This document shows, one piece after another, positions 5,048 through 64,000 of a DNA stretch of 64,000 nucleotides (position 1 is its first letter; each line of letters begins with the position of its first letter). The stretch is from NCBI RefSeq assembly GCF_004791025.1, contig NZ_SRUO01000024.1, positions 1-64,000 on the forward strand, given 5' to 3'. The stretch comes from Mesorhizobium sp. M4B.F.Ca.ET.203.01.1.1. GTDB lineage: Bacteria; Pseudomonadota; Alphaproteobacteria; Rhizobiales; Rhizobiaceae. A program made the position numbers and the translations under genes. A model generated the notes under the pieces. The model did not search any database, had not been told where the DNA came from, and saw only the letters and a program-made list of their open reading frames with translations.

Positions 5048-6433
5048 CTAGCAGTTCGCCTCAGTCTGCGGATCACACGCCTTTTTTTCTTGCTTCTGTG
5101 GCTTGGGTTTTACCGCCTGCCCACCCTGCTGCTGCTCGGCGGCGGGTTGCTCCTTGGCCTTTTTCTGCGGCTTGGCCGCCTGCTCGGGCTCGCCCTGCTG
5201 CTGCTCGGCGGCGGGCTGCTCCTTGGCCTTCTTCTGCGGCTTTGCCGCCTGCTCGGGCTCGCCCTGCTGCTGCTCGGCGGCGGGCTGCTCCTTGGCCTTT
5301 TTCTTCGGCTTTGCCGCCTGCTCGGGCTCGACCTGCTGCTCGGCCGCAGGCTGCTCCTTGGCCTTTTTTCGCGGCTTGGCCGCCTGCTCGGGCTCGCCCT
5401 GCTGCTGCTCGGCGGCGGGCTGCTCCTTGGCCTTTTTCTTCGGCTTTGCCGCCTGCTCGGGCTCGACCTGCTGCTGCTCGGCCGCAGGCTGTTCCTGCGT
5501 CTTTTTCTGCGGCTTGGCCGCCTGCTCGGGTTCGGCCTGTTCGGTCGAGGCAGCGCCTTCGGTCGGCTTCGATTTCCGGCCAGCTTGAACCTTCTTCACC
5601 TCCCCGATATCTTTGATCTCAGCTGGTTTGGCATCGGCATCGGCTTTCACCTCGCCTTCAAAGACCTTGACCGTATTGTTTTCGATTTTGCCAGACTGCT
5701 CGGGCGCGTCGGTCTTGCTGACCTTGACGACAGTCACCTCCTGGTTCGTCTCCTTCTCGATCACATCAACATCTATGACTTTGTTGATCACCACGTTGTT
5801 ATGGATCGTCACATCGCCAACCGGCTCGGCTGCCTCGACAATGCGCACAAATTCCGGCTCATCACGGATAACGACGACAGAAATGTCTGCCGCAAGGAAT
5901 TCGCGTGTGGGGACAACGACCCAGTAAAAATCCGGCGTCGCGTCGAAGGTCACCTCGATTGAAGTCAAATCCGGATCACGACGCGGCGGCAGCGGAGCCC
6001 AAATCAGGTGCTGCCTGTCACGACGCCAACTCACCCAGGCTGGCGCCCAACGAGTGCCCGGGACCCAGTACCAGCCGATGTCGTCGGCATAGCCCCACCG
6101 GCCGTAATGGTACGTCGCCCAGCCGAATGGCTCGTCGGATACCCAGAGCCAGCCATACTGCTCAGTATAGACCCAGTGTCCAAGGGTATATGGACGCCAA
6201 TCGTCAGGTACATCAGCCGGCACGAAAACGGCCGCTCCGTGGTACGAAACCCAGTCACCATGAGAAGAAAGGTCCTGGTAGAATGTGCTGATCGAAACGT
6301 TTGTGGCAGCCCGTGCCTCGGACACGAGCGACAATGGCGTAATCGGGTTGGGAATCTCGACGATGGTGAGCAGACAGGCGGCTACGCCGCCCAGCATCAG
6401 TCGTACCGCATTTTGAGCAAGGACGCGTTTCAT
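5048..6433 (-). CDS. exported DUF6600 protein with Lys/Gln/Glu repeat tail, 461 aa
   Basis: Residues 1-43 are a signal peptide (basic start, hydrophobic core with VAACLLTIV, cleavage after EARA). Residues about 50-180 form a Trp/Tyr-rich DUF6600 domain with repeated GHWVYT, YGWLWV and GRWGY motifs. Then come a linker of about 100 residues and six near-identical repeats of 22-23 residues beginning EPEQAAKP. The protein ends in a short basic tail with two cysteines (ACDPQTEANC). Its function is unknown; the layout suggests a periplasmic or surface protein with an extended charged tail. ATG at 6433 follows a GGAGGAAA site. An EcfG-like promoter at 6472-6496 suggests stress induction. Confidence 0.85.
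   Translation of the reverse strand: MKRVLAQNAVRLMLGGVAACLLTIVEIPNPITPLSLVSEARAATNVSISTFYQDLSSHGDWVSYHGAAVFVPADVPDDWRPYTLGHWVYTEQYGWLWVSDEPFGWATYHYGRWGYADDIGWYWVPGTRWAPAWVSWRRDRQHLIWAPLPPRRDPDLTSIEVTFDATPDFYWVVVPTREFLAADISVVVIRDEPEFVRIVEAAEPVGDVTIHNNVVINKVIDVDVIEKETNQEVTVVKVSKTDAPEQSGKIENNTVKVFEGEVKADADAKPAEIKDIGEVKKVQAGRKSKPTEGAASTEQAEPEQAAKPQKKTQEQPAAEQQQVEPEQAAKPKKKAKEQPAAEQQQGEPEQAAKPRKKAKEQPAAEQQVEPEQAAKPKKKAKEQPAAEQQQGEPEQAAKPQKKAKEQPAAEQQQGEPEQAAKPQKKAKEQPAAEQQQGGQAVKPKPQKQEKKACDPQTEANC
5122..5535 (-). repeat. six coding tandem repeats of 66-69 bp
   Basis: The unit encodes EPEQAAKPQKKAKEQPAAEQ plus two or three residues, usually QQ and then G or V. Copies differ mainly at the ninth residue (Q, K or R), and copy three lacks one Gln codon. 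Every copy stays in frame, so copy number could change without breaking the gene. Confidence 0.9.
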
Positions 6434-7216: not shown

Positions 7217-8158
7217 TCATGTGCTTCGCCCGGGTCGAGCAGCATTTGTTCCCGAATTGCTGGGCGTATCCCCTGCCCTATTCCTGGCAACAGCAACCAA
7301 CCGGAGCACAGAACGCTTTGGATTCGAGTCGAGCCAGACAGCCCTGATTGAGCTGACACTGTTTTGCCCTGCCAGCGGTTTCCACATCGTGGATTCGATG
7401 GCGGTCGTCCTGGCACAGCTTTCCTCGGCCAAAGTAAAGCCCTCCCCAAGTTGCACCTTGAGAGCGACCGTCGCTTGGTTCGCTCGGCACGTCTGCACTG
7501 CCGGGCCGCCGGTTGCTGCGATGCGCTCCAACAGTCGCAGGTCGAATAGCGGCCCCTCTGGCCCGACTGGAACGAGCAAGCACATTTCTGCAAGATCGGA
7601 CCATGCGACCACGGGCCTGTCGACGAGCGAGTGAGACGCCGGCAAGAGGACGAAGAGGCGCTCGTGCCAAAACACTTCGCTGCAACAGGAAGGGACGGCG
7701 CCAAAGTCGTGAGTGAACACGAGGTCGAGGTGCCGGCGGCGTATGGCTGACAGCCACCGCCCCGCGGGAACATCCTCGATGCTAAAGCTCACGTCCGGGT
7801 AGAGGCTGCCGAAGCGAGCGATGATGCCTCTTAGGAATTCTCCTCCCCTCACACAACACAATCCAATCCGGAGCGTCTTTGCGTCCTTGTCTCCGACACG
7901 GTCATCGAAAGCGTCCAGCAATCCTTCGTAGTGAGCTCGCACAACATCGATCCAGGCTCGACCCGGCTCCGTCAAACGAACGCCGCGGACATCGCGTTCG
8001 AACAATTGGACTTCCAAGTGTTGTTCGAGCTTGACGATGTTTCGGCTCACGGAGGATTCTCGAACCCTCATCGCCCTTGCCGCCCGCCTCAGGCTGCCAT
8101 GATCGACCGCTGCAAGGGCGTACGCCAGTAGCCGCAACGCGTTGCCGTTCGGCGTCAT
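7217..8158 (-). CDS. LysR family transcriptional regulator, 313 aa
   Basis: Residues 5-64 are a LysR winged helix-turn-helix (GSLRRAARAMRVRESSVSRN, then LEQHLEVQLFERDVRGVRLT). The remainder is a substrate-binding domain with a normal RIGLCCVRGGEF start; the last 20 residues are low complexity. It follows the SAM-dependent enzyme gene on the same strand, 129 bases downstream, so it may be cotranscribed with it and act as the local regulator. Its inducer cannot be told from sequence. Confidence 0.85.
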   Translation of the reverse strand: MTPNGNALRLLAYALAAVDHGSLRRAARAMRVRESSVSRNIVKLEQHLEVQLFERDVRGVRLTEPGRAWIDVVRAHYEGLLDAFDDRVGDKDAKTLRIGLCCVRGGEFLRGIIARFGSLYPDVSFSIEDVPAGRWLSAIRRRHLDLVFTHDFGAVPSCCSEVFWHERLFVLLPASHSLVDRPVVAWSDLAEMCLLVPVGPEGPLFDLRLLERIAATGGPAVQTCRANQATVALKVQLGEGFTLAEESCARTTAIESTMWKPLAGQNSVSSIRAVWLDSNPKRSVLRLVAVARNRAGDTPSNSGTNAARPGRST

Positions 8159-8287
8159 GCCTCGGGCGCTTTGCCGACGGGGATGGTGTCAGTTTCGGCG
8201 CAAGGCGTTCCCATTCTTCGTTGGTGCAGGAGGCAGTCAATAGGTTCCCTCCGTGCGCGCGGCTGAAGAAGTTCGCCGAGGCACATT

Positions 8288-9274
8288 TCACGGGTCGGCA
8301 TGATCCGTCAGGCTTCGATACAAGCCCCCTTCGTAGACATACTCATGTGGAATGGCCGGGTCCGCCATCTGCGAGACGTACAGGTTAAGATTTTCCCGGC
8401 TGTTGCTCGCCGCAAGGCTGCAGAAATTTCCGCTGTTCCAGGTCATGACGCAGTGTTTGAAATGCGTCCCTACAGCGCGCGACATCTCCTCAAGCGTTAC
8501 CTCGTTGTTGAACATCGTGGTCAGCACCGCGGTCTTCTTAGCCTCGATCTGCTCTTGCTGGAAGTAGCGAGCCTTGAAGCCGAAATCCTTCTGGTACTCG
8601 CGGCGCAGATAGTCGCTGTCGTCAACCGCCCGAAATTTCTCGAGGAATACGAAGATGCCTCCTTCCTTGAGATGCTGCGCCACGAACTCAATCTGTTTGG
8701 GTCTGTTCGGCGAGTACATTTGAAAGGTGGTATCTTCGAGGATTATGTCGAATCCGGAAGCGAATTTGCCCAACCGGGCGTTTGAATTGAGGACGGCCTT
8801 GGTCAGTCGATGGAACGGGCCGACAAAGAACTCGGCGTCTGGCGGTTCGCCATATGCCATGAAGCACTTGTAATTTTCCGCGTTAGGACTGCAGGAGAGG
8901 CTGTGGATTTGCCCGCGGGACAATTCCGACAGTGTTCTCGCCATGGTGCCCTCCGCTGTGCCAAGGCTATATAACGACAGCTGGGCACCGCGAATTCGTG
9001 CATATCTCAGCACGCCGTAAGCCATCCGGCACTCCTCCTCCAACCGGTAGGGAATGCTGCTGTGATAGTGCTGATCGAAGAAGCCTTGTCGTGCCGCATG
9101 CAAGCCGATCAAGTCGCGAATGAGGTTATCGTTCGGAAGAAGCCTGGAATCGACCTCGGGCTTGCGTGTAGGCATTCCGCTTTCGCCGGCTGCCGTCGTC
9201 GCGAAAAAGCCTGACAGTTCGTTGATCCGCGGGGCGCGGTCGCATTCAGCCAGAAAGTCGTCGAGTCCTCGCAT
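8288..9274 (-). CDS. SAM-dependent enzyme (methyltransferase-fold), 328 aa
   Basis: A class I SAM-binding core lies in the middle: LYSLGTAEGTMARTL is motif I, SLSCSPNAENYK takes the place of the acidic loop, FDIILEDTTFQMYS is motif IV and LKEGGIFVFLEKF is the post-motif. The N-terminal 120 residues and the tail (CVMTWNSGNFCSLAASNSRE) do not look like a standard methyltransferase. It could methylate a small molecule or be a SAM-using cyclase or lyase of the AzeJ/VioH kind; that is speculation. ATG at 9274 is chosen because GGGAGG lies 9 bases upstream; the frame is open to 9457. It is divergent from the AraC gene. Confidence 0.65.
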   Translation of the reverse strand: MRGLDDFLAECDRAPRINELSGFFATTAAGESGMPTRKPEVDSRLLPNDNLIRDLIGLHAARQGFFDQHYHSSIPYRLEEECRMAYGVLRYARIRGAQLSLYSLGTAEGTMARTLSELSRGQIHSLSCSPNAENYKCFMAYGEPPDAEFFVGPFHRLTKAVLNSNARLGKFASGFDIILEDTTFQMYSPNRPKQIEFVAQHLKEGGIFVFLEKFRAVDDSDYLRREYQKDFGFKARYFQQEQIEAKKTAVLTTMFNNEVTLEEMSRAVGTHFKHCVMTWNSGNFCSLAASNSRENLNLYVSQMADPAIPHEYVYEGGLYRSLTDHADP

Positions 9275-9540
9275 CGAATTGTGCCTCCCACTACCCGTGT
9301 GATCGGTGAGATGCCTCAACTCGACAAGTGCACCAAGATTAGCGCCGAGTAATATTCTTGGTGGTCGAGTATTAGCGGAGGCGAGGAATAGAATGGCCTT
9401 GTAGAAGCGGCTTCCATCGAATTGCGATTTTTTCGCTCGCGCCACATCAACCGACAACTCTGAATTATTTGTGAGTTGTCCAACAACCTATGGTTAGGCA
9501 CAAACAGGAGGATGAGTAGTCACCGAAGGAGTCGCTTCGA
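9275..9540. promoter_or_regulatory. divergent control region with inverted repeat
   Basis: This 266-bp gap separates the SAM-enzyme and AraC genes. GACAACTC (9453-9460) and GAGTTGTC (9473-9480) form a perfect 8-bp inverted repeat around a 12-base AT-rich spacer. Its right arm overlaps a second small palindrome, GTTGT-CCA-ACAAC (9475-9487). It is a likely operator for the AraC or LysR protein. Confidence 0.5.
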
Positions 9541-10431
9541 TTGGCGGATATTTTTTGCCTCGACCCGACCACATTCCGCCGTTCGCGGCACCAAACCCTT
9601 GTTCACCAATATGAGAGCTGGGGGAACATACGCGCAGACGTAATTAAGAGAACGGGTTTAGAGCGGCAAGAAACGAGAATTGCCTACCCCCGGCATATGT
9701 TCTTGATGAACTTGAAGGGTGCCGCCCGGCGCGGAGAAGACTTCGTCGACGGTCGCCGGTTTTCTTTTTCGGCTAGGCGGCCCGGTTCGATTATCTACAT
9801 CCCCGCCGACAGCGAATGGACTGGTTGGGATGAGGGTGACGCAATCGCCTCATACCTGCTCGTGTCCATCGCGCAGGAGTTCGCAGATGAGACCTTCGAA
9901 GGATTTGCATCCTACCGCCGGGCGGGACTGCCCCCGTGGATCGGATTCCGTGACAACACCATAGAAGTGGCGTTGCAGAGAATAGCCGCCGAGCTCAGGT
10001 TTCCTGATCCAATAAGCACGACGATGGTGGAGAGCCAGGTCACGCAATTGTTCGTGCAAATGGTCAGGTTGAACCGAACCGGCCGCAAGCTGGCAAAAGG
10101 CGGTCTCTCGACTTTCGATCTCAAGCGCGTCGTGGGAATGATGGAGCCATCCCCAGACGCCAAACCCACGCTGACCGATCTAGCAAAAGAGCTAGGTATC
10201 AGCCGTTTTCATTTCGGCAGGGCGTTCAAGCAGTCGACTGGAATGACGCCGCATGCCTTCATCGCGCAGCGTCGATTGGTACAGTCCGCGGACATGTTGC
10301 GGTCGACGGATTTGTCGGCGACAAAAATCGCGATGGAATGCGGCTTCGCAAGCTCAAGCCACCTCACGACCGCGTTCAAACGCGCCTTTGGCACGAACCC
10401 CATAGAGTTTCGGCGCAAATCCAGGATCTAG
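9541..10431 (+). CDS. AraC family transcriptional regulator, 296 aa
   Basis: The N-terminal 180 residues resemble the AraC-binding-like (AraC_binding_2) sensor domain. The C-terminal 100 residues carry two helix-turn-helix units (LTDLAKELGISRFHFGRAFK and LSATKIAMECGFASSSHLTT) and end with the usual F-G-x-x-P-x-E-F-R. The start is TTG at 9541, supported by GAAGGAG 9 bases upstream. It sits directly before the MFS gene (68-bp gap) and divergently from the SAM enzyme, so it probably controls this cluster. Confidence 0.85.
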   Translation: MADIFCLDPTTFRRSRHQTLVHQYESWGNIRADVIKRTGLERQETRIAYPRHMFLMNLKGAARRGEDFVDGRRFSFSARRPGSIIYIPADSEWTGWDEGDAIASYLLVSIAQEFADETFEGFASYRRAGLPPWIGFRDNTIEVALQRIAAELRFPDPISTTMVESQVTQLFVQMVRLNRTGRKLAKGGLSTFDLKRVVGMMEPSPDAKPTLTDLAKELGISRFHFGRAFKQSTGMTPHAFIAQRRLVQSADMLRSTDLSATKIAMECGFASSSHLTTAFKRAFGTNPIEFRRKSRI

Positions 10432-10499
10432 CCCGGAGCCCCTTTTATTCAGCAAGGAATTGAAAGGCTCGGCATCCCGTTAAATCCGACATCGCCGGA

Positions 10500-11732
10500 G
10501 TGGGCATGACATGCGGTCAATGGATGGGTGGGCCGCCGATGTCACGCGAAGTTCGGTTTCATTATGCCAAAGGAACGCTCCGTGAGCCCCGCGCTTTCAT
10601 TGGCTTCCTTGCCAGTGCGTTGTCCGCGTCTGTCGGACGAAACGGCTACTACATCGCATGCTCATGGACCCTCGTCGAAGCAGGGTATGGAAGCGCGAGT
10701 GTCGCGACGTTGCTCGCGATCGTCAGCGTTGTCGAATTTGTCGCGAGCCCCCTGGCTGGCGCAATGGCGGATCGGTTTGACAGACGACTGCTGAATATCG
10801 CAGCGGACGTTAGTCGCTTTGCCGTCATGCTCGCCATAGCCTGCGCGCTTCCCTATCTGGACTTGTTTCCAGCGATCTGGTGTTCAGCGATTCCCTTTGC
10901 GCTATGTGACCGAGTTGCACTTACGAGTTCGCAGTCAATGATCCCTCTCGTTGCGGGAGGCGATCTGACAGCTTCATATTCCATTGTCTTCTTCGTCACG
11001 CAGTTCGGATGTCTTGCGGCAGCGCTGCTCGTGGGTGCGTTACCAAACGACCATTCCGCTACCCTGGTGTTCGTCCTCCTTGCCGTATGTTTTCTTGTTT
11101 CGGCGGGAAGCTTGTCCTGCATTCGTGGCGGCTCGGCGTCTGGCGAACGCAAAGTCAACGGGCTTGCTCTCAATATTGACGGGCGCCTGGTTCGTCTCTT
11201 CGCCGTCTACGCGCTCCTATATGGAGGCGCGGTTTTGCTCAGCGTGATGGGATCTAGCTTCGTTTTCGTAGAACAGAAGGGCACTGCCGCGGACTTCGCT
11301 CGCGTCGAGGCAGCCTGGTCGGCGGGTTCTCTGATCGGAGCGGCACTGCTCAGTCGGCTGACAGGAACGATAAGTCCTCATACATTGCACCTCATGGTTT
11401 TAGGTTTAACGGCGCTCGCGCTGATGGCGCTGGTACCTTTGCGCGCGCCCTGGACATTGACCATGTTTGCCGCGCTTGGGTTTCTCTACAATCTGGGCCG
11501 GGTCAGCGTCGAGGTCACACTGCAGTCGCGTGTACCCGATAAGGCCTTGGGCAGAGCCAAAGGTGCCATGCACAGCCTCGCAGTCGGGCTTGGGTTTGTC
11601 ATTTTCAGTATCGCAAGCGTTTTGGGAGACCAGGCCTTTCCGTCGACGATCTTCCTCGGTTTCGCTGTGGTGCTTCTGTTCGGCGTTTCTGCCTTGAGCA
11701 TCAACGTGGCTCGGCAAGAGGGGGATCCATGA
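10500..11732 (+). CDS. MFS transporter, 410 aa
   Basis: About 12 hydrophobic segments are spaced as in the major facilitator superfamily. The loop between spans 2 and 3 reads GAMADRFDRRLLNIAADVSR, matching the G-x-x-x-D-R-x-x-R-R signature. The family resembles the enterobactin-exporter-like MFS proteins, so export of a small molecule is the reasonable guess. The start may be GTG 10500, ATG 10506 or ATG 10539. The TGA stop at 11730-11732 lies just before the next gene's GTG, so the two are almost certainly cotranscribed. Confidence 0.85.
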   Translation: MGMTCGQWMGGPPMSREVRFHYAKGTLREPRAFIGFLASALSASVGRNGYYIACSWTLVEAGYGSASVATLLAIVSVVEFVASPLAGAMADRFDRRLLNIAADVSRFAVMLAIACALPYLDLFPAIWCSAIPFALCDRVALTSSQSMIPLVAGGDLTASYSIVFFVTQFGCLAAALLVGALPNDHSATLVFVLLAVCFLVSAGSLSCIRGGSASGERKVNGLALNIDGRLVRLFAVYALLYGGAVLLSVMGSSFVFVEQKGTAADFARVEAAWSAGSLIGAALLSRLTGTISPHTLHLMVLGLTALALMALVPLRAPWTLTMFAALGFLYNLGRVSVEVTLQSRVPDKALGRAKGAMHSLAVGLGFVIFSIASVLGDQAFPSTIFLGFAVVLLFGVSALSINVARQEGDP

Positions 11733-11733
11733 C

Positions 11734-13134
11734 GTGCATGAGCTAGCAGGAGCCGCAGGAGCGAAACAGGCCGTACTCAGATCGCTGGCGACACTCTACC
11801 CGTGGATGCAACACTACTATTCCCGTCCGATCCGCGACTACGCGGCCAGGCTGTACGAGGCACCAGTTTCGACAGCCATGCCTGAAAGTCGGCAATACGC
11901 TCTGGCCAAGCTGCTCGACGCGATCAAAAACGCCGGGAAGCGAAATGGATTGCCGATCGACGCGGTCGCAGAAATCTGCAGGGAATTTGAAGAGCGTCGC
12001 GTTTTGCAGACGGGTCCTCACCTGCTGCTCCTGATAGACCCGGAGGCTTACTACACTCACATCCTTAGCCTCGTGGGCCTCTCGGCGCATGGCTGCTCTA
12101 CCTACCTGTCCTATGCCGTTTCCACGGTGAGCCTCGTTGAAAGGGCTCGCAAGGGCCCGGGCTGGCTCACAATTGATCAGACGCCGATCAACGTCTTCGG
12201 CCTCACCCGAAGCCGCATGATCGGGTACAGCCTTCTGACTGGGCCTGGAGCCTATCGGTTCGAACTGGTGCCTGCGGAACAAGGCGCTGAGCCAGACGCG
12301 CTTGCGGTGCTTCACAATCTTCTGCCGAAGGGCCAATTCGAACGGCCAGCACATGCCATAAAGGAAGCCAATTGCAGCCTGTGGCCGAAGCTGTTTGGAA
12401 GCCGCTTTACCTTCTTGCAGATCGACGACGAGGATATTGCCGACCTGGTGGCGGACCATCTGTCGGAAAAGAACTCCTGGCTGCGTACGAGGCTGCTGGA
12501 AGACCCAAGGCTCGCGTTGAATATGCTTGCAGAGATCGACAGGCTTGCAGACGGCCCCTGGAGTGGCTGGCTCGCGCGCGGTACCGACTTCTTCTGGTTC
12601 TATCAAAACGGAAGGCGCCTGCCACTGCGGCTGGTCGCTGGCGAACTCGTCAATCCGGCAACAGGGTTGAAGATGGTTCGCTTCGAGGCTTCCGAAATCA
12701 TCGAGCGGTTGGCCGACCGCAGTCTAATTCCGAATCTCCTCCTCATGTTTCTGGTCGTGTCGGTCCTGCCGGGCGTCCGCGCGCTCGGAGGCAGTCATCA
12801 GCCGGTCTACTACCCCCTCATGCGCTATGTGGTCTGCCGCGCACTCGAGGCTGGAGATGTGGATGCCGATCTGCGGGAGGCTCTCGTGGCCGATGATCTA
12901 CCTGGCGCTTGGGGACACCGAGTAATTGAGTGCGATGACGATCTCTTGGACGTTTTTCGAAACGGAGACATGGCCGTGTCCAGCGATATCATGGACCGGC
13001 TCGGAAAAATTCCCTTCGCAAAAGCCTGTGGAAGTATGACCAGTTTTACTTCGGACGCGTCGTGGCAAGAGCTTAGCAGACAGTTGGGCGAGCAGGCGAT
13101 CTCCCCCACTGATGCGGAATGGGCCTTTTCCTGA
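11734..13134 (+). CDS. protein of unknown family, 466 aa, coupled to the MFS gene
   Basis: I do not recognise the family. It is soluble, with no signal peptide. Visible blocks: GPHLLLLIDPEAYYTHILSL and a following Gly/Ser/Thr-rich stretch (HGCSTYLSYAVSTVSL, residues about 90-145), a region with SLWPKLFGSRFTFLQIDDED, and a hydrophobic patch (LIPNLLLMFLVVSVLPGVR) near residue 340 followed by GGSHQPVYYPLMRY. Size and mixed alpha/beta look suggest an enzyme. GTG start at 11734, 1 base after the MFS stop, fits translational coupling. Its product is probably made or used together with the transporter and the SAM enzyme. Confidence 0.75.
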   Translation: MHELAGAAGAKQAVLRSLATLYPWMQHYYSRPIRDYAARLYEAPVSTAMPESRQYALAKLLDAIKNAGKRNGLPIDAVAEICREFEERRVLQTGPHLLLLIDPEAYYTHILSLVGLSAHGCSTYLSYAVSTVSLVERARKGPGWLTIDQTPINVFGLTRSRMIGYSLLTGPGAYRFELVPAEQGAEPDALAVLHNLLPKGQFERPAHAIKEANCSLWPKLFGSRFTFLQIDDEDIADLVADHLSEKNSWLRTRLLEDPRLALNMLAEIDRLADGPWSGWLARGTDFFWFYQNGRRLPLRLVAGELVNPATGLKMVRFEASEIIERLADRSLIPNLLLMFLVVSVLPGVRALGGSHQPVYYPLMRYVVCRALEAGDVDADLREALVADDLPGAWGHRVIECDDDLLDVFRNGDMAVSSDIMDRLGKIPFAKACGSMTSFTSDASWQELSRQLGEQAISPTDAEWAFS

Positions 13135-13395: not shown

Positions 13396-14763
13396 TCAGA
13401 CAGGACTCACTGCGCCGTCAGTGTGAACAGCGAGATACTGCGCCCGGCGTGCGAACAGGCCCGGCACCACCGCGTGGACCTCGGCAATCAATTCCTGCAC
13501 GTCCGCAGTCAGGAGGTTGCCGTTCTCGACCAGGATCTTTCCATCGACCATTGTCATATCGACGTCGCTACCGCGGACAGCGTGGACGAGGTTGTGGTGC
13601 AGGTTGAAATAGCGCCCGCTCATCAACGGCGTCATGCGCGGCGTGTTCGTGCGAACTGCGATGATGTCCGCTTTCTTGCCAACCTCCAACGAGCCGAGCT
13701 CATGTTCGAGGCCGATGCTGCGCGCTCCCGTGATCGTGCCCATGCGGAGCACATCCCAAGCGTCGAGCGCCCCCGCGTTCAACGTGTTGAGCTTGGCCAG
13801 CAGCGACGCGCACTTCATGTCGTCAAACATGTCGAGATTGTTGTTCTCTTTTTCACCGTCGGTGCCGATGCCGACCGCCACGCCGGCAGCCAGGAGCTTC
13901 TCGACGGGCGCCGTGCCGCTCGCAAGCTTCATGTTGCTGACGGGATTGTGGACGACCCCCACCCCGTGCTCGGCGATGATTTCAATTTCGCTGTCGTCTA
14001 GCCAGACGCAGTGGGCGAGCAGCACCTTCCTCGGTTCGAATAGCCCAAGATGCCGAAGTGCGTCGACAGGCCTCAGCCCGTAGCGGCGTTTCATTTCGCG
14101 CAGTTCGATCTCAGCTTCATTGCTGTGGGTATGGAAGCCGGTATCGAACTTCCTGGCGAGATCGATCACGCCGGCATACTTGTCTTCGGTCGCGTAGAAG
14201 GCGTGCTCCAGGCCGACCCAGACATGGATGCGGTCGTCGCATTTGCGGTGCCATTCCTCCAGCAGCCGCTCATTCGTCTCCAGCGTCTCGAAATAGTTGT
14301 AGTCGGGATGCTCGCCCACGTAAGGCACGAGCACCGAACGGTTGCCGATCGTCGCCGCCGCGCGCGCGCTGCCATCCATGTAGCGCCACATATCGACAAT
14401 CGTCGTGGTGCCCGACAGCACCGCCTCCGCATAGCACAGCCAGGAAGCAACTTCGGCCTCGCGCGGGTTCAGCACCCTGTGCATCGGGTCGATGAACATC
14501 CTTAGCCAGTCCCAGACGGGAAGGCCCTCCGCTGTCCCGCGCAGAATGCCCGAGTGGCAATGCGCGTTGACTAGCCCGGGCATCAGCAGCCGGTTCTTCA
14601 GCCGGCGAAGCTCGGCGCCGGGATTTGCCGTTTCGAGCGACCCCCTGTCGCCAATCGCGGCGATCCTGTTGCCGCGAACAAGCACAGCGCCATCGGCAAT
14701 GACCCGATCTTCGCTGTCCATGGTGATGACGGTGTCGGCAGAGATCAGAATGTCTTTTGTCAT
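13396..14763 (-). CDS. amidohydrolase family protein (SsnA/AtzA/TrzN-like), 455 aa
   Basis: It is a full-length metal-dependent hydrolase of the cytosine deaminase/chlorohydrolase-like group. Metal ligands are visible: H68 and H70 in NAHCHSG, H211 and H213 in FHTHSNEAE, H251 in LLAHCVWL and D302 in GIGTDGEKENNN. These enzymes deaminate or dechlorinate purine, pyrimidine, triazine or adenosine-type substrates in the cytoplasm; the substrate here cannot be told. ATG at 14763. It is divergent from a LysR gene 85 bases away, which is the likely regulator. Confidence 0.9.
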   Translation of the reverse strand: MTKDILISADTVITMDSEDRVIADGAVLVRGNRIAAIGDRGSLETANPGAELRRLKNRLLMPGLVNAHCHSGILRGTAEGLPVWDWLRMFIDPMHRVLNPREAEVASWLCYAEAVLSGTTTIVDMWRYMDGSARAAATIGNRSVLVPYVGEHPDYNYFETLETNERLLEEWHRKCDDRIHVWVGLEHAFYATEDKYAGVIDLARKFDTGFHTHSNEAEIELREMKRRYGLRPVDALRHLGLFEPRKVLLAHCVWLDDSEIEIIAEHGVGVVHNPVSNMKLASGTAPVEKLLAAGVAVGIGTDGEKENNNLDMFDDMKCASLLAKLNTLNAGALDAWDVLRMGTITGARSIGLEHELGSLEVGKKADIIAVRTNTPRMTPLMSGRYFNLHHNLVHAVRGSDVDMTMVDGKILVENGNLLTADVQELIAEVHAVVPGLFARRAQYLAVHTDGAVSPV

Positions 14764-61107: not shown

Positions 61108-61530
61108 TCAGGCAACGCGCCGGCCCTGGGCGTCGATGACGACTTCGCCGTCTTCCTTCGTGAACGAACCGATATCCGGATTAGGGAGGATGCTGAGCAC
61201 GGCTTCCGATGGCCTTGCGAGGACAACGCCGAGCGGCGTGACGACGATGGGTCTGTTAATTAAAATCGGATGCTCGAGCATGAAGTCGATCAATTGGTCG
61301 TCGGTCCATTTTGAATTGCCGAGATCGAGCTCCGCGTAGGGCGTGCCCTTCTCGCGCAACAGTTCGCGCGGCGTCATGCCCATGTGGCCGACCAGTTCCA
61401 AGAGCTTCTGGCGCGACGGCGGGTTCTTGAGATATTCGATAACTTCAGGTCCCTCGCCGGACTGCCTGATCATCGCCAGTGTATTGCGCGAAGTGCCGCA
61501 ATCGGGGTTGTGATAGATCGTGATCGTCAT
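61108..61530 (-). CDS. arsC: arsenate reductase, glutaredoxin-dependent, 140 aa
   Basis: MTITIYHNPDCGTSRNTLAM has the catalytic Cys-x-x-Ser-Arg region. KNPPSRQKLLELVGHMGMTP, LREKGTPYAELDL and HPILINRPIVVTPLGVVLAR-P complete the family at normal length. It reduces arsenate to arsenite with glutaredoxin in the cytoplasm. ATG at 61530 overlaps the aqpS stop (ATGA), showing coupling. The frame is open upstream, but the family start is clear. Confidence 0.95.
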   Translation of the reverse strand: MTITIYHNPDCGTSRNTLAMIRQSGEGPEVIEYLKNPPSRQKLLELVGHMGMTPRELLREKGTPYAELDLGNSKWTDDQLIDFMLEHPILINRPIVVTPLGVVLARPSEAVLSILPNPDIGSFTKEDGEVVIDAQGRRVA

Positions 61531-62228
61531 TCGGCGGCTTTCAATTTCGAGTTGGCCACAGGGGAGGATTTCGGTTCTGCAAGCAACCATCCGGCGACGA
61601 GCAGAGCGACAACGGCGCCAAGAATTTCGGCAACGATGAAGGCAGGCAGGTCAACTGGTCGGATTCCTGCGAAGGTGTTGGAAAAGGCGCGCGCGATCGC
61701 CACCGCAGGGTTGGCGAAGGACGTCGAGGCGGTGAACCAGTAGGCGGCGGTGATGTAGAGCCCGACCAGCCACGGAATGGCATCGGAGCGGAAGCGCAGG
61801 CCGGCCAGGATGGTGAAGACCAGGCCGAAGGCGGCCACCGCTTCCGCAAACCATTGACCCGACCCCGTCCTAGCGTGTGTCGAAATCTGGACGAGCGGCA
61901 ACTCGAACATCCCGTGCGCGACCAGCGTGCCGATGATCCCGCCGACAATCTGCGCCAGGATGTATAGCACGGCGGCATTGGCGGTGATATCGCGCCGCAG
62001 TCCGAAAACGAGCGTCACGGCCGGATTGAAATGAGCACCAGAAATCGGACCGAGGACGGTGATCAGCACCACGAGGATGGCGCCCGTCGGCAGCGTGTTG
62101 CCGAGCAGGGCCAGGGCAACGTCACTGGTCAGCTTCGCGGCCATGATCCCCGAGCCGACAACGGTCGCGACGAGGACTGCAGTGCCCAGTGCTTCCGCCA
62201 CAAGGCGGCGTGGCAAATCGGCGCTCAT
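61527..62228 (-). CDS. aqpS: aquaglyceroporin of the arsenic operon, 233 aa
   Basis: Six membrane spans and both NPA boxes (SGAHFNPAVTLVFG and TSFANPAVAIARAF) mark an MIP channel. Directly followed by arsC, it corresponds to AqpS, which in Sinorhizobium lets arsenite leave the cell after ArsC makes it. ATG at 62228 (MSADLPRRLVAEALG) is the family start; an upstream ATG-like start at 62267 lies in the preceding fragment. Confidence 0.92.
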   Translation of the reverse strand: MSADLPRRLVAEALGTAVLVATVVGSGIMAAKLTSDVALALLGNTLPTGAILVVLITVLGPISGAHFNPAVTLVFGLRRDITANAAVLYILAQIVGGIIGTLVAHGMFELPLVQISTHARTGSGQWFAEAVAAFGLVFTILAGLRFRSDAIPWLVGLYITAAYWFTASTSFANPAVAIARAFSNTFAGIRPVDLPAFIVAEILGAVVALLVAGWLLAEPKSSPVANSKLKAAE

Positions 62229-62232
62229 CAGC

Positions 62233-62448
62233 TCAACCTGCCTGGGGCAGGTTGCGACCAATCTCATCCAGGCTCTTTTGCAAAGCGAGCTTGTCGAGCT
62301 TGTTCATAGGCAGGCTGACAAAGATCGAGATCCGGTTGTTGAGCATCCGAAAGGTATCAGCAAAGGCTAGATGCTTCTCCGCCTCAGTGCCTTCCACCGC
62401 TGCCGGATCGGGCACTCCCCAATGCGCCGTCATTGGCTGACCCGGCCA
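62233..62448 (-). pseudogene. arsenate reductase of the low-molecular-weight phosphatase type, C-terminal fragment
   Basis: WPGQPMTAHWGVPDPAAVEG and DTFRMLNNRISIFVSLPM are the end of LMW-PTPase-like arsenate reductase proteins of rhizobia. The catalytic P-loop (C-x5-R) and first 90 residues are missing; upstream the frame is Arg/Pro/Ser-rich noise. The stop is 4 bases before the aqpS ATG, so the original operon was probably arsR-arsC-aqpS-arsC-arsH. Confidence 0.7.
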
Positions 62449-63528: not shown

Positions 63529-64000
63529 GCTTTCGAGGGTAAATCGGGCGTGCGGTTTGTGCCATGATTTTCACATCAAAACGCACAGCTTGTCGGATAC
63601 ACAAAACGAATGATAATGTTGCCAGCCACTTAGCCGCGCCGGCGCGACATCGTATTGGTTAGAGTTCTCTGTTGGCGCTTCGGACGAAGTCTTTGTTTTA
63701 GGTTGCTCTTCAGAAGCGACTGTTCGGCTAATGGAGGCGTAGAACGCACGGTTGGCCTTTTCGAACCGTGCCCAAACCGGCGGTCAAACCAGCTTGAGTT
63801 TAGTCGGCACCAGTTCGCCGTCCGTCTGCCTGATCTTCATCGCATTGTGGGACGGTCAATTCTTTCCCGATTGCGGCTATGAGGGCGGACACGCGGGCAC
63901 GCACTCGCGGAGGAAGTCGAACAAGACGCTCGATCAAGCGTCGACCTTCTGCGCTGGCAATGAAGCCAATGCGCTCATCGACTGGTAGATGTGAAGCCTC
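63529..64000. other. 472 bp without a recognised gene
   Basis: Two overlapping plus-strand frames (63655-63882, 63752-63988) have no known domain. The second contains IFIALWDGQFFPDCGYEGGH and could be part of a gene that continues beyond the window; not supported enough to call. Confidence 0.35.

Follow-up and report, generated by a model that had tools for sequence, protein, structure and literature searches.

We describe a cluster of five genes in Mesorhizobium sp. M4B.F.Ca.ET.203.01.1.1 that probably forms part of a mobile system for making, exporting and re-importing an amino-acid-derived compound, a metabolite of the specialised type; we hold this reading with moderate confidence. The cluster occupies positions 7217-13134 of the window, by which we mean the whole 64,000-nucleotide stretch analysed (positions 1 to 64,000 of contig NZ_SRUO01000024.1). 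It encodes a LysR-family regulator and a putative S-adenosylmethionine (SAM)-dependent enzyme, hereafter the SAM-type enzyme, on the minus strand, and an AraC-family regulator, an MFS transporter and a 466-residue protein, P466, on the plus strand. Gene content, linkage, co-occurrence, predicted folds and mobility are the observations from which we argue. The original prediction had proposed a make-and-export pathway for a signal, toxin or metal ligand. Such a pathway is supported by the co-occurrence and by the folds, the unit is larger than proposed, with an uptake module just past the window end, and no pointer to a metal ligand was found. No published description of the cluster was found among the matches listed in a literature search aimed mostly at the enzyme families.

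All five open reading frames (ORFs) are present and intact, as claimed. The LysR gene (7217..8158, minus strand; Pfam PF00126 and PF03466) lies downstream of the SAM-type enzyme gene (8288..9274, minus strand), whose 328-residue product has a predicted class I methyltransferase fold nearest CmoA and its kin, along with profile similarity to CmoA. On the plus strand, the AraC gene (9541..10431; PF12833; TTG start as listed) is followed by the MFS exporter (10500..11732; PF07690 above cut-off, TIGR00900 below cut-off) and by P466 (11734..13134; 466 amino acids), which has a BshC-like or class I tRNA-synthetase-like predicted fold and is a predicted ATP-dependent amide ligase. The ORF of the SAM-type enzyme is open upstream to 9457; since most congener matches set in only at its residue 47-65, and the three that extend to residues 2-9 read through stop codons, the ATG at 9274 (residue 62 of the ORF) is the likely start of the 328-residue enzyme. 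P466 starts one base past the MFS stop codon (TGA-c-GTG), and the corresponding gaps in the four congener loci compared are 1, 1, -4 and -11. Because these gaps are small or overlapping, the translational coupling of P466 to the transporter that had been suggested is plausible.

The SAM-type enzyme and P466 travel together within the genus. Our sample of 61 genomes comprised the window's own, 36 congeners (37 of the genus in total) and 24 others, and the enzyme was found in 12 of the 61, all of them of the window's genus (12/37). Every one of these 12 carriers holds a full-length close P466 (at least 37% identity) at the same locus, as against none of the 25 non-carrier congeners (Fisher p = 5.4e-10 for association with the enzyme); fragments of P466 without the SAM-type enzyme occur in G011 and G031. 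Thirteen carrier loci were read, that of the window and 12 more, of which G034 contributed two; eight keep all five genes in the order LysR-SAM/AraC-MFS-P466. No LysR gene was called in L014 and L015; L014 begins 284 bases from the enzyme, and the same copy seen as L045 shows a LysR gene there. L017 is without the MFS gene, and L022 and L023 (53% identity) have only the SAM-type enzyme and P466 of the five. Separately, the second copy of the cluster in G034 (L014, 2354-5512) has its AraC-MFS interval interrupted by ORFs that, by reading only, resemble a transposase and a group II intron reverse transcriptase.

Beyond this sample, a scan of named genomes returned 138 relatives of the SAM-type enzyme, and all counts of named loci given here refer to the best 80 of the 138. 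Their sources include Mesorhizobium, Rhizobium, Phyllobacterium, Shinella, Agrobacterium and Hoeflea, as well as Brucella cytisi, Brucella pseudogrignonensis, Pectobacterium and Streptococcus equinus. At 56 of the 80 loci the flanks hold P466, which was not seen at the other 24; the flanks extend at most 8 kb and are shorter at contig ends, so that counts of presence, those of the companion genes discussed below included, are lower bounds. The co-occurrence set as a test in the original prediction is thus complete among the congener carriers and holds at the majority of named loci, with the adjustment that P466 is not universal and that enzyme and exporter can stand alone. In the neighbourhood map, members of the LysR cluster occur at 21 of the 80 loci, and a LysR gene of the window's type was seen beside the enzyme only at Mesorhizobium-type loci. 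Among 72,556 plasmid records, the enzyme was matched in 200 with the window protein as query and in 204 with the Pectobacterium protein, and P466 in 150, none of them enterobacterial. The matched plasmids include the symbiotic plasmid p42d of R. etli CFN42 and, for the enzyme, also the Ti plasmid pTiL51_94.

A pared-down form without P466 also occurs, among others on plasmids of gut bacteria. The SAM-type enzyme accompanied by a LysE-family exporter and no P466 was found in E. coli, Klebsiella, Pectobacterium, Streptococcus equinus and a Rhizobium metagenome-assembled genome (MAG). In Pectobacterium, S. equinus and the MAG the exporter gene follows directly after the enzyme gene; its identity is given by Pfam PF01810 in the first two and by reading only in the MAG. 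The 5716-bp E. coli plasmid pSTEC2018_607-j carries the pair (cassette L148 553-2082) together with replication and mobilisation genes and one 238-residue protein without family. Matches to this cassette occur in 24 of 5,426 E. coli genomes and cover at least 80% of its length in 19; some of the rest cover the LysE half only. All 30 places are on plasmids, none on a chromosome. Since enzyme and LysE are the cargo of such small plasmids, the 238-residue protein aside, a single-step pathway is to be expected; the pair may be a complete unit, in which case its substrate should come from primary metabolism. The old 'type A microcins' of E. coli, amino-acid antimetabolites, might correspond to this cassette, but no paper to that effect was seen among the matches listed in a literature search.

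The window's SAM-type enzyme has no Pfam or NCBIfam match at E ≤ 1, and only two of 41 family members match Pfam Methyltransf_31 (best E 0.0019), the window protein not being one of them. Its AlphaFold2 (AF2) model (pLDDT 90.5) finds CmoA/YecO as the nearest fold (1im8; Z 19.3 over 214 residues, 16% identity), with 4gek and 4iwn at Z 19.2 and entries for the SAM-binding proteins 3dtn, CysG and BelI at Z 18.2-18.7, tied with CmoA within 1-1.1 Z. A Rossmann-like methyltransferase fold is thus supported by the model, the top PDB matches being such enzymes. A profile search with the family alignment agrees weakly with CmoA (E 0.005), and direct hhalign comparison of the family with a CmoA profile built from only five sequences gives P 3.6e-6 and a probability of 87.5%, against P 0.37 for P466 as control. 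The EKF and TxQ segments of the enzyme align with CmoA. It differs from CmoA in an extra N-terminal helical part, and no tRNA-modification context was noticed at its loci. The predicted fold suggests that the enzyme may use SAM. A profile match to STING chains, at E ~0.03 with the first alignment, receded to 0.6 with a wider one and was rejected as chance.

For P466, which had been flagged as belonging to no recognised family, no Pfam or NCBIfam match and no match by sequence to a solved structure was obtained at E ≤ 1, and none of the 35 members of its family matches Pfam, the BshC family PF10079 included. Neither protein matches a housekeeping family, in Pfam or NCBIfam for the window's own two and in Pfam for the 41 and 35 family members. 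The P466 model (pLDDT 88.4) is nearest in fold to BshC (Z 17.0 over 359 residues, rmsd 4.3 Å, 8% identity) and next to class I LysRS (Z 12.2, 285 residues), with weaker matches (Z under 8) to other class I synthetases and to MshC (Z 6.7, 253 residues). The structure prediction and fold search recommended for both proteins thus gave a CmoA-like and a BshC-like answer where Pfam assigns neither. Enzymes of these kinds form adenylates or ligate amino acids; BshC is the cysteine ligase of bacillithiol synthesis. Because its predicted fold is nearest BshC, P466 is probably an amide-forming ligase. The likeness is to the BshC-type core fold as known here from the model, and no bacillithiol genes were noticed, none having been searched for.

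More distant relatives of P466 occur in other settings. A divergent paralogue (27-32% identity), left out of the cluster counts, is present in 24 of the 37 genomes of the genus, for example at G000:C220:294880-296178 (L024 6791-8176), and directly follows a GNAT gene in both loci read (L024 and L025). A class-wide search with the P466 alignment matched two of 385 genomes, the window's own included, and the family is therefore rare in that sample. A relative on plasmid pTLV-1 of Bartonella kosoyi (L159 5743-7140; 26% identity) sits in a cluster with ATP-grasp and MATE genes, and one on a Streptomyces linear plasmid (L160 7344-8960; 28% over half its length, E 5e-6) in a cluster that also holds ATP-grasp, amidinotransferase and MFS genes.

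A second module appears to serve uptake. Loci bearing P466 often adjoin a pair of ABC permease genes together with genes for a binding protein and for a companion protein of CapA/MslH type, hereafter MslH-like, and on R. etli p42d the synthesis and uptake modules stand side by side. On the window's contig the module starts at 63.8 kb, 51 kb from P466, with an XRE-type regulator on the minus strand (63800..64000 in the window, the ORF running out of it to contig position 64240). Beyond the window end follow the MslH/CapA-like gene (64370-65677, minus strand), matches to a substrate-binding protein (SBP; 65718-66533) and to permeases (66696-67265 and 67463-67951), and a LysR match (68832-69722, plus strand), all on the same contig. 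The block shares 53-64% identity with that of p42d. The family closest to the binding protein is that of Lys/Arg/Orn type, for which it scores 217.7 bits against a cut-off of 256. In the congener sample, the MslH-like gene is present in 12/12 enzyme carriers versus 4/25 others (Fisher p = 9.8e-7), on the same contig as P466 and within 94 kb of it in ten of the twelve and on a different contig of a draft genome in two (G019 and G025). The G032 copy has one in-frame stop, and one G034 copy is split.

The nearest NCBIfam model of the MslH-like proteins is NF038314, that of the lasso-peptide epimerase MslH, at 151 and 122 bits for the two proteins scanned. These scores are far below the cut-off of 700, and no lasso peptide genes were noticed, none having been searched for. 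Seven of the eight catalytic positions are kept: Glu44, Asn87, His88, Asp91, His259 and His261 in 27/27 proteins, and His295 in 25, with a gap in two. These residues were read from an alignment of the 27 and mapped to MslH by motif; a text pattern finds Glu44 in only 18 of the 27.

At the 80 named loci, the identity of the isomerase-type neighbour follows P466. The MslH-like gene was seen at 27 of the 56 loci with P466 versus none of the 24 without (Fisher p = 5.5e-6), and an alanine racemase at none of the 56 versus 10 of the 24 (p = 1.2e-6); 14 of the 80 showed neither P466, MslH-like gene nor racemase. Dereplication at 85% (38 loci) gives p = 2.8e-4 for the MslH-like gene and 9.1e-4 for the racemase, at 75% (21 loci) 0.001 and 0.012, and at 70% (15 loci) 0.007 and 0.14. 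The racemase stands above the TIGR00492 cut-off (187 versus 168 bits, one protein scanned), all ten racemases hold the pyridoxal phosphate (PLP) lysine motif K-x3-YG-x-G, and in the annotated example the gene lies among the uptake genes. Five changes in the presence of P466 are counted across a tree of 52 enzymes. The MslH-like gene changes with it in 2-4 of four independent pairs and never opposite, and the racemase changes opposite to it in 1-2 of four and never the same way. Two rows of this tree received their MslH-like-positive label on a basis not used for the rest: the window from its contig, where the gene lies 51 kb away, and Rm41 from a stretch of 29 kb. The racemase locus L092 nests among P466-bearing Rhizobium (support 90, unstarred; long branch) and would be an independent swap if that join holds. 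The pattern suggests one isomerase role filled by two enzymes, a racemase acting on a free amino acid and an epimerase on an amide-bound one.

Several loci connect the genes to conjugation. On plasmids, uptake, isomerase-type, regulator and presumed synthesis genes stand together next to traA/traG. On p42d the SAM-type enzyme gene is followed by one (L147 15178-15648) that encodes a conjugal transfer regulator of the SMa0974 family, which ties that locus to the plasmid transfer region. In L062, L064, L081 and L095 the ORF after the enzyme resembles TraR (by reading only). On pAt15955 of Agrobacterium tumefaciens 15955 (397452-401174; L161 8175-11897), genes for an acyl-homoserine lactone (AHL) synthase (At15955_RS25205), the SAM-type enzyme, P466 and a GNAT protein lie on one strand as an apparent operon, the first two overlapping by 8 bp. 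A 2021 paper names this synthase gene traI At_2, places it in an uncharacterized locus and reports no biosensor-detectable AHL from it, so that it would be either non-functional or the source of a product invisible to the biosensor (PMC7856919). Elsewhere, genes of dimethylarginine dimethylaminohydrolase (DDAH), ornithine cyclodeaminase, arginase or arginine deiminase type lie in various sets near the enzyme and P466 (L093, L094 and L096; in L102 only the DDAH-type gene), together in the first three with a gene that by reading only is like a protein arginine methyltransferase (PRMT) and has no Pfam match. This recurrence hints at an arginine-related substrate.

With the enzyme start at ATG 9274, the divergent control region between the SAM-type and AraC genes spans 9275-9540, the 266 bp originally described. 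It holds two perfect 8-bp inverted repeats with a gap of 3-30 bases, one of which, GACAACTC-12 nt-GAGTTGTC (9453-9460 and 9473-9480), had been put forward and is a candidate operator. It sits in a well conserved intergenic block, in an alignment of ten rows that represent seven distinct loci (L009/L035, L010/L033 and L013/L029 being among the pairs from the same genome), and is also perfect in one further distinct locus, L010 (= L033), and imperfect in the other five. At least one perfect 8-bp repeat arises in 32 of 500 dinucleotide shuffles of the region, and the repeat by itself is therefore weak evidence; we rejected it as a strong argument.

Other features of the window lie outside the cluster. 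An amidohydrolase gene (13396-14763, minus strand) beside a second LysR gene is a candidate salvage partner of SAM chemistry; its nearest models are N-ethylammeline chlorohydrolase and 5'-deoxyadenosine deaminase, with scores below all cut-offs. A 461-residue ORF (5048-6433, minus strand) ends in near-identical C-terminal repeats of the EPEQAAKPKKKAKEQPAAEQQQ type and has no NCBIfam match at E ≤ 1e-10. An arsenate reductase gene (TIGR00014, above cut-off) and an aquaporin-family gene (61108-62267, minus strand) form an arsenic-resistance layout.

In the pathway that we propose, the CmoA-fold enzyme would draw on primary metabolites, SAM reacting either with itself or with an amino acid, to form a product that resembles an amino acid. 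Where present, P466 would then activate a carboxylate and join it to an amine, yielding an amide conjugate of the first product. Judging from their families, the MFS protein would export the conjugate and the LysE exporter the unconjugated form, and the importer of Lys/Arg/Orn type, whose parts are assigned at the same level, may take the compound up again. The isomerase encoded next to it on the same strand would act on the returning compound. At loci without P466 this would be an enzyme of alanine-racemase type working on the free amino acid, and at loci with P466 an MslH-like protein working on the amide-bound form. The LysR, AraC and XRE regulators would control the synthesis and uptake halves. 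The likeliest role is opine-like, as a private nutrient or a signal shared among carriers, or else that of an amino-acid antimetabolite.

Several observations weigh against this scheme. No acidic residue ends strand 2 of the SAM-type model (residues 123-129): positions 127-129 and 131 are S/A/T, C/T, S and N/T/S in the 41 sequences, position 130 being Pro in 41/41, and SAM binding is for this reason not assured. Profile-profile similarity of P466 to BshC, with 20 BshC sequences used, is not significant (hhalign P 0.39 and 0.53), both local alignments falling on the same segment, so the ligase role is argued from the fold. Asp11 of MslH is replaced by Gln in 27/27 MslH-like proteins; an Asp11-to-Ala mutant of MslH is reported to be inactive (PMC10406935), which makes epimerase activity unsure. 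The MslH-like gene occurs without the enzyme in four congeners (G001, G003, G011 and G031) and was not seen in the flanks of 29 of the 56 P466 loci, and the p42d uptake block has no annotated ABC ATPase. Finally, the congener association tests treat genomes as unrelated, with kinship uncorrected, and the tree offers only 4-5 independent pairs, with sign tests that do not reach 0.05.

Of the alternatives, resistance or detoxification survives best, though we consider it unlikely: the SAM-type enzyme and P466 would inactivate an environmental toxin, the exporter would expel it, and nothing would be produced. AraC, MFS and a modifying enzyme make a resistance layout too, as do LysE and a methyltransferase-like enzyme on mobile plasmids. 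The amino-acid ABC importer and isomerase-type gene that accompany the cluster, however, fit use of a compound better than defence. A ligase fold of BshC/synthetase type would be unusual for detoxification, and the clusters of the distant P466 relatives include an ATP-grasp gene as well.

It is quite improbable that the enzyme is an azetidine-2-carboxylate (AZE) synthase like AzeJ or VioH, with AZE or an AZE peptide as the exported product. Such synthases have the same fold class and the same logic, and their published clusters likewise combine an enzyme of methyltransferase fold that consumes SAM with tRNA-ligase-like enzymes, N-acetyltransferases and transporters, in many cases close to mobile elements (PMC11794875). 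The AZE-synthase signatures given there, PFNxxGN and RxxYYxxC, are nonetheless found in 0/41 members of the SAM-type family, and membership was rejected on that ground; AzeJ and VioH are also missing from the top 50 fold matches, a result that does not exclude them.

We give slightly less credence still to an opine-type metallophore pathway resembling that of staphylopine, in which aminobutyrate is transferred from SAM to an amino acid before condensation, export and re-import. A SAM-type enzyme, racemase, exporter and importer do all appear in related loci, but the importer is of amino-acid type, and in the loci read we noticed neither an opine dehydrogenase gene nor one of nicotianamine-synthase type, none having been searched for. 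A carboxy-SAM synthase like CmoA, feeding carboxymethylation, is very improbable. In its favour, no other profile is nearer than that of CmoA, whose fold is also one of those tied for nearest, and Glu164 of CmoA aligns with an invariant Glu of the family. Arg199 of CmoA, which is reported to bind the carboxymethyl group through its carboxylate (PMC3663124), falls on a variable column (K14, T8, N6, E5, R3, S2, A2 and Q1 of 41). The window protein matches neither TIGR00740 (CmoA) nor any other NCBIfam model at E ≤ 1, no carboxymethyl transferase was recognised among the five genes, and membership was rejected on Arg199 and TIGR00740. That the genes are unrelated chance neighbours, as the lineage-limited LysR gene and the loci at which P466 was not seen might suggest, is scarcely credible given the 12/12 co-occurrence and the same gene order across genera and on plasmids.

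Our favoured reading invites comparison with the opine systems of Agrobacterium, which take up and use an amino-acid conjugate in a manner linked to conjugation. In both, the tra genes of conjugative plasmids have an amino-acid-type importer, an isomerase-type gene and regulators as neighbours; here, in contrast, the bacterium itself carries the presumed synthesis genes. A bolder version of this reading, which we regard as possible though rather doubtful, is that a single step catalysed by the core enzyme turns SAM into a new amino acid, and that the enzyme serves a mobile 'opine-like' economy of interchangeable modules. The free amino acid might go with LysE or MFS export and a racemase, and the amide conjugate made by the BshC-fold ligase with MFS export and an MslH-like epimerase, the carriers being symbiotic, Ti and At plasmids, Mesorhizobium genomes and 5.7-kb E. 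coli plasmids. In the same speculative vein, the orphan LuxI-type gene traI At_2, joined to the cluster on pAt15955, may use the product of the cluster as a substrate or signal.

If the proposed system is real, two enzyme families without a Pfam entry would join natural-product chemistry. There would then also be a possible explanation for the orphan AHL-synthase-like gene of A. tumefaciens 15955. The question of the product is directly testable with two genes, those of the enzyme and exporter pair. For the nodule bacteria, the making of amino-acid metabolites would be a recurrent plasmid-borne trait, the symbiotic plasmid of R. etli CFN42 included.

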